This document shows positions 49,806 through 53,095 of a DNA stretch of 64,000 bases, piece by piece. The DNA lies in assembly GCF_039536245.1 (NCBI RefSeq), contig NZ_BAAAYN010000002.1:1-64000 (forward strand). Reading direction: 5' to 3'. The notes beneath the pieces were generated by a model. The model did no database searches. It saw nothing but the letters and a program-made list of their open reading frames with translations, and was not told where the DNA came from. Source of the DNA: Cryptosporangium minutisporangium (GTDB lineage: Bacteria; Actinomycetota; Actinomycetes; Mycobacteriales; Cryptosporangiaceae). Numbering within the stretch: position 1 is the stretch's first letter; every line of letters begins with the position of its first letter. The position numbers and the translations under genes were made by a program.

Positions 49806-49874
49806 CGGACGACATGGCCGTCAAGGGGCGATCCCCGGCGCCTCGCGGTGGACACGGCACGGGACACTGAGCCG

Positions 49875-51098
49875 ATGCCGCAGCAGCTCGATCGCTTTCC
49901 GCAGCTCGTCGCCCGCTACGCGGAGCACCTGCACGCCGCGCTCGGCGGCGAGAGGCCCGCGCACCACGTCGCGTCGCCGCTCGGCGCCTGGCTGGTGCTG
50001 GCGCTCGCCGCACCGGCGGCGACCGGCCCGGTCCGGGCGTCGCTGGAGGACTTGCTCGGTGAGCCGGCCGAGCAGGCCGCCGCCCGCGCCGGGCGGTTGC
50101 TGTCCGAGCCGCATCCCGCGGTGGCCGCGGCCGCGGCACTCTGGACGCGGGCCGACCAGCGCACACCCGCGTTGCGGGCCTGGGAGTCCGGCTTGGCCGA
50201 GATCGTCGAACGCGGAGCGGTCCCCTCTCAGGAGGGCGCGAACGCGTGGGCGAGCACCCGGACCGGCGGCCTGATCGAGGAGTTCCCGATCCGCGTCGAC
50301 GCGCGGACGCTGCTGGTGCTGGCGTCCGCGCTGGCCACCGACGTGTCCTGGCTGACGCCGTTCGGCACCGCACCGGCCGCGGAACTCGGAGCCGACAGCC
50401 CCTGGGCCGAGCGCGTGACGACGGCGCTGCGCTCGGCCGACGTTCACGCGTGCTTCCTGGCACCCACCCCCGAGGCCGGGGACGTGGCCGTGCACACCGT
50501 GGAGAGTGCGGACGACGACCCGCTCGTCGTCGTCTCGGTGATCGGTGCGCCGGACGTCGCGCCGCCCGCTGTGCTCGCGGCCGCCCACCGGATCGCGACC
50601 GACCACGTCGACGCGCTCGCCCCGCGGTACTCGCTGTTCGACCTGCCGCTGGGCGAGGGCCATGCCTGGACGATCACCGAGGAGCCGACGCAGACGCTGG
50701 CCCGCGACGGCCGGGAGGAGCACTGCGGGGCAACGCTGCCGGCCTGGTCGGCGCGGAGCACTCACGACCTGCTGCGGGACCCGCGCACCGGATTCGGCGA
50801 CGCCGCCGCGGCCGTGCTGCCGCTGCTGCCACCGCGGCCGGAGGGTTTCGCGGTGGAAGCGGTGCAGAGTGCGATGGCCGAGTACTCCCGGGTCGGGTTC
50901 AAGGCCGCGGCGGTGACTGCGCTGGGGATTCGGGTCGGCTCGGTGGCGCCGTCGCCGCGGCCCGGCGTGTTACGCCGGGCCGCGTTGCGGTTCGGGCGGC
51001 CGTACGCGGTGGTGGCCGTGGTCGGCGCGCGACGGGGGCCCTGGCACGGTGTTCCGGTCTTCTCCGCCTGGGTCGCCGAGCCCTCCGACGCCGGCTGA
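49875..51098 (+). CDS. Serpin-like protein
   Basis: This 407-residue protein matches the serpin fold at RTGGLIEEFPIRVDARTLLV followed by LASALATDVSW, which corresponds to the serpin breach and strand region, and at the end FGRPYAVVAVV. It has no signal peptide, so it should be cytoplasmic. The segment expected to form the hinge and reactive loop is divergent, so inhibition of a protease is not assured. An in-frame GTG at 49848 is an alternative start. It is divergent from gntR and shares its dre-like promoter region. Confidence 0.7.
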   Translation: MPQQLDRFPQLVARYAEHLHAALGGERPAHHVASPLGAWLVLALAAPAATGPVRASLEDLLGEPAEQAAARAGRLLSEPHPAVAAAAALWTRADQRTPALRAWESGLAEIVERGAVPSQEGANAWASTRTGGLIEEFPIRVDARTLLVLASALATDVSWLTPFGTAPAAELGADSPWAERVTTALRSADVHACFLAPTPEAGDVAVHTVESADDDPLVVVSVIGAPDVAPPAVLAAAHRIATDHVDALAPRYSLFDLPLGEGHAWTITEEPTQTLARDGREEHCGATLPAWSARSTHDLLRDPRTGFGDAAAAVLPLLPPRPEGFAVEAVQSAMAEYSRVGFKAAAVTALGIRVGSVAPSPRPGVLRRAALRFGRPYAVVAVVGARRGPWHGVPVFSAWVAEPSDAG

Positions 51099-51170
51099 CC
51101 TCGCACTCCTCCTTCACGCGCGCGGGTAGCGCGGACGCCGCTGCGTCGCCGGTGGCGCACCCGTGCTCAC

Positions 51171-51360
51171 ACGTTGTCGTTGCGGCTGGTTGTCACCGTT
51201 TCCGGGTCCCCGCCGAGATGGTTGTCGTGGATTCCGTGTCATGGTTCGGAATCCACGACATTCATTACGTGGGCTGCCCCGAAAGAGCGACAACCACCCA
51301 CGCGCCGCGCGGACAGCGCGACAACCACCCAGCGCGCCCGCCCGAAAGGGCGACAACCAT
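51171..51360. repeat. Oppositely oriented 31-32 bp repeat units around a dyad
   Basis: Forward units GACAACCACC occur at 51289 and 51320 and GACAACCAT at 51352 (spacing 31 and 32). Reverse units (xTGGTTGTC) lie at 51186-51194 and 51218-51226 (spacing 32), and a partial copy is at 51172-51178. The two orientations face away from each other across a 14 bp inverted repeat. The conserved part includes a GAAAG(A/G)GC-like stretch before the core, as at 1-105. It fills most of the gap between convergent genes. Confidence 0.8.
51223..51260. terminator. 14 bp perfect inverted repeat, likely bidirectional terminator
   Basis: TGTCGTGGATTCCG at 51223-51236 and CGGAATCCACGACA at 51247-51260 are exact complements with a 10 nt loop. 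It sits between the convergent serpin and aldehyde dehydrogenase genes and shares bases with the nearest reverse repeat unit. Confidence 0.65.
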
Positions 51361-51387
51361 CAGCGGCTCGTGCGGGACGGCCCCGCG

Positions 51388-52797
51388 TCACTCGGTGTGC
51401 GGCGCTTGGTCGGCCGGCGCTTCACCCACCCAGACGGTCTTGACGTTGCAGAACTCGCGGATGCCCTGGGACGACAGCTCGCGTCCGTAGCCGGAGACCT
51501 TGATCCCGCCGAACGGCAGCTGCGGGTAGGACGTGACCATGCCGTTGACGAACACCGCGCCCGCCTCCAGGTCACGGGCGAAGCGCTCCTGCTCGGCCGG
51601 GTCGCCGGTCCAGGCGTTGGAGCCGAGACCGAAGTCGGTGCCGTTCGCGACCTCGATCGCCTCCTCGTAGGAGGAGACCCGGTACAACCCGGCGACCGGC
51701 CCGAACACCTCCTCGTGGTACATCCGCATGTCCGGCGTCAGGTCGGCGACCACGGTCGGCGGATACCACCACCCCGCACGCTCCGGAGCGGTACCACCGC
51801 ACAACACCGTCGCGCCCTTCGCCACCGCGTCGTCGACCAGCTCGGCCACGTCCGTCCGCCCCTGCTCGGTGGCGAGCGGCCCGACGTCGGTCTTCTCGTC
51901 CTGGGGGTCACCGACGGTGAGCGCCGCCATCCGGTCGACGAACGCCGTCGCGAACGCGTCGTACACGTCGGTGTGGACGATGAACCGCTTGGCCGCGATG
52001 CAGGACTGACCGTTGTTCTGGCAGCGTGCGGTCACCGCGACCTCGGCGGCGCGCGCGATGTCCGCGGAGGGCATGACCACGAACGGATCACTGCCGCCCA
52101 GTTCGAGCACGGTCTTCTTCAGCTCGCGCCCGGCGATCGCGGCCACCGCCCGGCCTGCACCCTCGCTGCCGGTGAGCGTCGCCGCGGCGACCCGCCGGTC
52201 GCTCAGTACGGCTTCGACCTGGTCGGAGCCGATCAGGAGGGTCTGGAACGAGCCCTCCGGGAAGCCGGCCCGCCGGAACAGGTCCTCCATGAACAGCGCG
52301 GTCTGCGGGACGTTCGAGGCGTGCTTGAGCAGGCCGGGGTTGCCGGCCATCAGCGCGGGCGCAGCGAACCGCATCGCCTGCCACAGCGGGAAGTTCCACG
52401 GCATCACCGCGAGCACCGGGCCGAGCGGCTGGTACCGGACGTAGGCACGGACGGCCTTCACCTCGGACGGGTCGCCGATCGGTTCGTCGGCCAGGAACGA
52501 GGCGGCGTGCTCGGCGTAGTAGCGACACGCGGTGGCGCACTTGGACACCTCGGCCTTGGCGGCGACCAGCGTCTTACCCATCTCGACGGTCATCGTCCGG
52601 GCGATCTCGTCGCGCTCGGCGTCGAGGATGTCGGCGGCCGCGCGCAGCCACGTCGCCCGTTGCTCGAACGTGGTGGCGCGCAGCGCCGCGAACCCCTCGG
52701 CCGATCGCGCCAGGCTCGCTTCGACCTGCGCCTCGGTGAGCGGTTGAAAGGTCTTGAGCACCCGACCGTCGGTCGGATCGATCGTCGCGATCGGCAC
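51388..52797 (-). CDS. NAD(P)-dependent aldehyde dehydrogenase, succinate-semialdehyde type
   Basis: This 469-residue enzyme has catalytic Cys in NNGQSCIAAKRF, the general-base Glu in ELGGSDPF, the cofactor segment VMPWNFPLWQ and the TLTGSEGAGRAVA loop. The start IATIDPTDGRVLKTF and the length fit the GabD-like succinate-semialdehyde dehydrogenases. The GTG at 52797 has AGGAGG in range; the longer open frame upstream is not supported. No aminobutyrate gene adjoins it, so the substrate is assigned by family only. Confidence 0.87.
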   Translation of the reverse strand: MPIATIDPTDGRVLKTFQPLTEAQVEASLARSAEGFAALRATTFEQRATWLRAAADILDAERDEIARTMTVEMGKTLVAAKAEVSKCATACRYYAEHAASFLADEPIGDPSEVKAVRAYVRYQPLGPVLAVMPWNFPLWQAMRFAAPALMAGNPGLLKHASNVPQTALFMEDLFRRAGFPEGSFQTLLIGSDQVEAVLSDRRVAAATLTGSEGAGRAVAAIAGRELKKTVLELGGSDPFVVMPSADIARAAEVAVTARCQNNGQSCIAAKRFIVHTDVYDAFATAFVDRMAALTVGDPQDEKTDVGPLATEQGRTDVAELVDDAVAKGATVLCGGTAPERAGWWYPPTVVADLTPDMRMYHEEVFGPVAGLYRVSSYEEAIEVANGTDFGLGSNAWTGDPAEQERFARDLEAGAVFVNGMVTSYPQLPFGGIKVSGYGRELSSQGIREFCNVKTVWVGEAPADQAPHTE

Positions 52798-53095
52798 CGT
52801 ACTACCTCCTGGTTGCGTCGGGCTCCCTGATTCGGCGTCGGGACGTCCCTCCCTCGGGTATAGACCCGCGCGCGCCGCCCCGCCTGCCGACCGGCGAAAG
52901 TACCGACCCCGCGTAGCCGAGGCCTCCCCGTCGCTGTACCCGGCCCTCGACCGGCTGTACCGCGGGCGAGACGCCTTCTCGGACGTGAGTTGGCGGTTCG
53001 ACAGCGAGCCCGGCGACCCGCCGCGAGCGATCCTCACGAATCTGACAAATCGCCATTAATCTCGCTTTCAAGCATCCGCCGGTACAGGAGGACCT

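Follow-up and report, generated by a model that had tools for sequence, protein, structure and literature searches.

Between two convergent genes of Cryptosporangium minutisporangium, short repeat units stand in two orientations around a perfect hairpin. Is this a part of the cell's own equipment, kept for what it does at gene ends or along the chromosome, or a repeat that has spread through the genome? The question was examined in the window, i.e. the whole stretch of 64,000 nucleotides that was analysed (G000:C2:1-64000, contig C2 starting at the window start), in its own genome (G000; 9.23 Mb in 152 contigs), in three congeners (G001, G002 and G003) and in wider sets of genomes.

Organisation of the element in the window

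The copy in the window lies at 51187-51359: a perfect 14-bp dyad has two reverse units to its left and forward units to its right, and convergent genes stand on either side. The reverse motif, TGGTTGTC(A/G), occurs twice, first at 51187-51195 and then at 51219-51227. From the sequence and the alignment of cores, reverse unit 2 (51187-51218, minus strand) is the motif TGGTTGTCA with its spacer; the motif of reverse unit 1, TGGTTGTCG (51219-51227, minus strand), overlaps the dyad. In the dyad the left arm (51223-51236, plus strand) pairs with the right arm (51247-51260, minus strand) at 14 of 14 positions, around a loop of 10 nt (51237-51246) that is the equivalent of the palindromic centre TGCCATGGCA of many other copies.

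The forward units follow on the plus strand. In the first (51256-51287) the motif, at 51256-51264, has decayed to CGACATTCA, against CGACAACCA in most copies. The second (51288-51318, 31 bp) and the third (51319-51350, 32 bp) precede a fourth (51351-51366), which merges into the start of the right arm, CAACCATCAGCGGC; the CGACAACCA motifs of these three units (51288-51296, 51319-51327 and 51351-51359) are 31 and 32 bp apart. Outside the reverse units a shortened left arm (51131-51186, plus strand) can be recognised when the stretch is compared by eye with the consensus left arm of other copies. A second array of the same units (plus strand, about 1-107) is truncated by the contig start.

The first-pass annotation had described reverse and forward units around a perfect hairpin between convergent genes, and had related them to an array at 1-105. 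The positions of motif, dyad and ORFs agree with the description, and the kinship holds through the same motif and a period of 32. With at most one mismatch the motif occurs 12 times in the whole 64-kb window, against a shuffle mean of 4.84 (none of 100 shuffles reaches 12); five of these matches are in the 51187-51359 element and two in the array at the window start.

The upstream gene (49848-51098, plus strand) is serpin-like (Pfam Serpin, E 2.8e-5, under the curated cut-off). The convergent gene (51388-53037, minus strand) codes for an aldehyde dehydrogenase, matched by the NCBIfam model of NADP-dependent succinic semialdehyde dehydrogenase at 830.7 bits, over the cut-off; its true start is probably inside the called ORF. 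A perfect 13-bp inverted repeat, its arms separated by 3 nt, lies in the end of the serpin-like gene (50956-50984). In the congener G001 (L126, 3891-6204) there seem to be two adjacent serpin-like gene copies where the window has one.

The site in related genomes

When the window locus is aligned with G002 by BLAST, the alignment ends at 51092 and restarts at 51430, with 8 bases between the two points in G002. The DNA absent from G002 thus spans 51093-51429, about 337 bp with ends uncertain by a few bases, and the outer limits first given to the element are somewhat narrow. At this place the stop codons of the two genes overlap in G002 and in G001, with no insert, and in G003 the two genes are separated by a short, unrelated gap; for these reasons the 337-bp stretch looks like an insertion. 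The stop of the dehydrogenase sits within it: the last 11 codons of the gene (51388-51429) come from DNA missing in G002, and the protein runs 11 residues further at its C-terminus than in that congener, where the gene stops earlier and its stop codon overlaps that of its neighbour.

The flanks of other copies were then compared with G002. Flank pieces of 24 of the 45 prepared loci were sought there, and 23 were placed, all except L017. Both flanks were found in order for 20 of the 23, and a single flank aligned for L019 (with two candidate places), L021 and L029. At the 17 loci that were tabulated, alignment gaps range from 175 to 1260 bp in G000 (median 616) and from 7 to 186 bp in G002 (median 46); these gaps lie between alignments, are not annotated intergenic lengths and can include diverged DNA foreign to the family, and that of L032 includes a run of N. 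Three loci stand outside the 17: at L016 the gap is longer in G002 (700 bp, against 515 here), at L018 it is 635 bp against 837, and at L031, where one flank is repetitive and poorly aligned, it is 287 bp against 624. Inspection by eye of 13 junctions and of the window locus showed no target-site duplication, within the limit that gap divergence sets to the comparison. At the window locus only, the comparison extends to three congeners, and it shows what reads from the sequences as an insertion here, not a loss elsewhere; at the other loci insertion rests on G002 and on the fact that none of the three congeners has the pattern.

The family in the genome

The genome-wide catalogue that the first-pass annotation had called for finds the element dispersed. 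Used as a BLAST query, the 200-bp element has at least 120 overlapping matches in G000, a lower bound, 40 of 114 candidates being scored. We analysed 46 stretches (L009-L048 and L128-L133) of this family, called F1. Their common core has a fixed order: two reverse units, then the centre CGTGCCATGGCACG, then two forward units, often followed by more of the latter. The centre was located by the best match to a 47-base consensus with a cut-off score of at least 29, which 40 of the 46 stretches reach (L039, L042, L044, L130, L132 and L133 are below it); 60 shuffles of one 3.3-kb stretch gave a mean of 24.2 and a maximum of 28.

The two sides of the centre behave differently. The reverse arm has two units in 39 of the 40 copies with a centre and three in the remaining one. 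The forward arm has from 1 to 30 units, the commonest number being 4 (13 of 40 copies); in both counts the first unit on each side is scored by construction. A forward count of 1 occurs in two copies, L041, which meets an assembly gap, and L048, in which the first forward unit is unrecognisable. Steps between forward units are of 32 bp in 239 cases, 31 bp in 25, 33 bp in 6, 30 bp in 2 and 37 bp in 1. Some tails are series of identical units, and in one tail two types of unit alternate; the runs of identical units point to local amplification. As some arrays stop at contig ends (the window start, L021, L042 and L132), the count of F1 is a lower bound. Copies are mostly 70-80% identical to one another, so that no recent insertion is seen.

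Outer arms past the units are present in fuller copies, with an inverted repeat, GCGGTCGTGGCAACG, close to either end. The 13-base core of this repeat was scanned with at most 2 mismatches in the 40 stretches L009-L048. It is present in register on both sides in five of them (L013, L016, L022, L029 and L036) and on one side in six (L010, L018, L020, L028, L030 and L035); out-of-register matches are also present and look like chance. In L010, L028 and L030, with tails of 4, 15 and 19 units respectively, the right copy lies 55-56 bp beyond the start of the last unit. Other copies, e.g. L026, are scarcely more than a head and a tail.

Occurrence outside the genome

Two motifs 31 or 32 bp apart are found 142 times in G000 (72 forward, 70 reverse), 0 times in G001, G002 and G003 and 0 times in a further genome from the same taxonomic family. 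When 394 genomes were drawn from across the class, this pattern occurred in one of the 393 besides G000, once there; the same pattern read backwards, as a control, was absent among the matches listed. The DNA query matched none of the three congeners (best 4 candidates per genome scored). Among 200 genomes of the order it gave weak partial matches in six others (E 1e-4 to 7e-4, 27-43 query bases), which are taken as chance.

The first-pass annotation had argued for a designed element, and had named uniqueness or lack of conservation as findings that would speak against it. The family is real, organised and repeated, and to this extent the argument stands; a conserved host function, which "designed" would imply, does not follow. 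The test itself splits, since the element is far from unique in its own genome and is not conserved in its relatives: the comparison with relatives, also proposed at that stage, gave no exact unit pair in the three congeners and an orthologous site devoid of the element in all three.

A wider scan of contigs for the two-motif pattern, which may omit the window's own and nearest records, returned 35 contigs, of which 34 contain one match each. Some have tandem arrays of 31 or 32 bp with the same 9-mer, e.g. Arthrobacter (L085), Agromyces (L099) and Serinicoccus (L075); a further 31/32-bp array of this kind is in a Myxococcota MAG (L080, 399-600). The spacers of these four arrays are unrelated and no head is visible by eye, and the head-and-tail layout was found in 0 of the 12 contigs (of the 35) inspected by eye, in part. 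Because the scan selected for pairs of the 9-mer, these arrays are treated as chance. A description of F1 was not found among the best-ranked matches in the open-licence literature, which is weak evidence.

Could the copies be relics of an integrated replicon or phage, the units being iterons and the palindrome an origin or centromere? Iterons around a dyad do resemble an origin, in layout only. The copies nevertheless number dozens, are short and apparently intergenic; the exact two-motif pattern was not found in viral contigs, and blastn of plasmids and phages gave no match to the element. We regard such a descent as very improbable. A CRISPR-like array is a reading to which we give next to no credence. 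The regular period of 32 bp and one weak Rfam CRISPR match nearby would suit it, but the DNA between the motifs of long tails is repeated, not unique, and this Rfam match is under its gathering score and outside the element (at E <= 1, Rfam gives two matches in window positions 50900-51600, both under gathering scores). With no support from the Rfam, viral, plasmid and phage searches, a CRISPR, plasmid or phage origin of F1 was rejected.

Folding and position relative to genes

The core of the window copy is predicted to form a hairpin of about 110 nt. For its 142-nt RNA the folding energy is -71.7 kcal/mol (z -5.5), a stability equalled by none of 200 shuffles. For seven cores z ranges from -5.5 to -9.6; the stretch L017, which has no outer reverse unit and was not counted as a core, has a z of -3.3. 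These values would suit a dedicated bidirectional terminator, or an mRNA 3'-end hairpin of this lineage, retained for its function at gene ends.

RNA covariation was examined on a 40-pair hairpin taken from the core folds, in an alignment of 34 of the 40 cores. Cells changed on both sides with pairing preserved number 34, against 24.6 after shuffling (reached in 4 of 500 shuffles) and 6-13 in controls slid along the alignment. Less favourable to this function, paired cells amount to 85.9% against 85.0% shuffled, pairs with a two-sided change number 13 against 10.4 (reached in 50 of 500), and the RNAalifold consensus of the same alignment has a two-sided change in 1 of 22 pairs. From these mixed counts the support for selection on pairing is modest.

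The position of the copies was analysed with rough, GC3-based ORF calls. Of 45 loci, 16 are between convergent genes, 18 between tandem genes, 4 between divergent genes and 7 are undetermined; a called ORF overlaps the element in eight (L012, L022, L024, L030, L037, L045, L130 and L132). Relative to a background of 148 gene pairs, drawn from the window and 23 G002 pieces, the excess of convergent pairs has a p of 0.07 and the deficit of divergent pairs a p of 0.12. Convergent placement is not the rule, and the preference is weaker than the first description of the window copy implies. The gene on the head side is directed at the element in 27 of 38 loci (p 0.014), as expected of a terminator, and some G002 gaps contain hairpins that by eye are not evident in G000, although a comparison of hairpins outside the core, made with a replacement of terminators in mind, points in neither direction. 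Against this, the convergent enrichment is not significant, many loci are tandem, and termination has no need of long tails. We consider a dedicated terminator or 3'-end hairpin unlikely as the main explanation of F1.

Conservation within the units

One unit was taken from the tail of each of 38 loci. Conservation is 82-100% in GCGACAACCA and 87-100% in the CCC that opens the unit, against 37-71% in the 12-base spacer that follows the motif. The first of these values is partly circular, as units were recruited by a score containing GCGACAACCA; only CCC, which was not scored, is independent. The contrast between motif and spacer could reflect selection for function, a point against a passive reading of the repeat.

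One function of this kind would be to bind a host protein able to polymerise or cluster on the units of the tail, as in a nucleoid-organising or segregation array, with nucleation at the palindrome of the head and spreading over the tail. Besides the conserved positions, a unit period close to three helical turns is consistent with it, as is the spread of the mapped sites over the chromosome: 22 of 24 loci could be placed on the single contig of G001, where they are scattered. With dnaA at 1.4 kb as origin, the terminus opposite and synteny assumed, these sites nevertheless display no replication-strand bias (13 leading, 9 lagging), tails vary from 1 to 30 units and the pattern is missing from the congeners. 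The contrast in conservation could also come from an ancestral unit structure combined with tandem homogenisation. A binding array of this type appears rather improbable.

A more specific form of the same idea is a lineage-specific array that grows, with a palindromic nucleation site, two inverted sites and a one-sided tail at dozens of places, on which a putative host or selfish protein would assemble in one direction. It is a speculative and quite doubtful proposal; if true, tail length would tune local chromosome structure or the behaviour of gene ends. A function as terminator or protein array, should either be true, would give the family a greater interest.

Comparison with known repeat families

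F1 is dispersed, joins a near-invariant two-unit head to a variable tail, is absent from most of the G002 junctions compared and has a strong potential to fold back on itself. Among known repeats its layout is closest to the BOX type (two head units in 39 of 40 copies, a tail of 1-30 and, where copies are fuller, outer arms). The BOX sequences of Streptococcus pneumoniae, with the structure boxA-boxBn-boxC, are likewise short, intergenic and foldable, with variable tandem modules between fixed end modules. As described in PMC3049150, pneumococcal BOX has variable tandem boxB modules, is enriched between convergent genes and spread in a burst, and its members, which occur in a narrow set of species, are inferred to be non-autonomous mobile elements. 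In F1, unlike BOX, the module has 32 bp, is GC-rich and is also inverted in the head, nearly always twice. The analogy is thus one of layout, and membership of the BOX family is not claimed.

REP, BIME and REPIN sequences share with F1 a dispersed, foldback and intergenic nature, inverted and tandem units and species specificity, as these are presented in PMC2817692 and PMC3733652; the latter names GTAG/CGTC tags. F1 differs from REP and BIME in having one inversion per element followed by direct units, with no alternation. No mobilising enzyme was identified for F1: in a search for the RAYT transposase (Y1_Tnp, PF01797) at E <= 0.001 neither G000 nor the three congeners (4 of 4 genomes) had a match, controls being positive in 5 of 14. 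A REP driven by RAYT was rejected on this result, the association with RAYT that PMC2817692 gives for REP/BIME being absent here. MITEs are, like F1, small, dispersed and foldback with no evident gene of their own, and an inverted repeat lies close to either end of the fuller F1 copies. Points of difference from MITEs are that no target-site duplication was seen at the junctions inspected, that F1 has no reported partner transposase and that it contains an expandable minisatellite.

Proposed origin

Taken together, we hold it probable that F1 is a non-autonomous, lineage-specific, dispersed composite repeat, BOX-like, that was inserted between genes and whose tail expands locally. A copy is built from a pair of inverted 32-bp units, a centre that is palindromic about TGCCATGGCA and a tail with a variable number of direct units. 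Copies would have spread by transposition with an enzyme supplied in trans, after the split of the lineage from its congeners. They may have been tolerated mainly between genes and have decayed later, and their tails may lengthen locally through slippage or unequal recombination. Effects on the neighbours, such as on transcript ends or mRNA stability, would be a side effect.

Repeat families are described as rare in bacterial genomes (PMC8049555). F1 is widespread in one species and lacking in three congeners, with near-empty sites that can be read at the level of the base. How repeat families move without RAYT is, to our knowledge, an open question; the mobilising enzyme, the cause of the one-sided growth and the effects at gene ends are all directly testable in F1, and its tails could serve as typing markers.

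A second repeat family

Beside several F1 copies another repeat, F2 (GGTTTTCGGGAAGACCAC), abuts the F1 arms. With at most 2 mismatches F2 has 121 sites in G000, 1 in G002 and 0 in G001 and G003. It looks closer than F1 to a REP-type family, yet the four genomes gave no Y1 transposase match. F2 also occurs in 20 further stretches away from F1, none of which contains the exact F1 motif. There its units form either inverted doublets, in most cases with a distance of 34-38 bp, or direct runs with a distance of about 40 bp; examples of F2 are at L168 (593-645), at L163 (617-793) and in L034.
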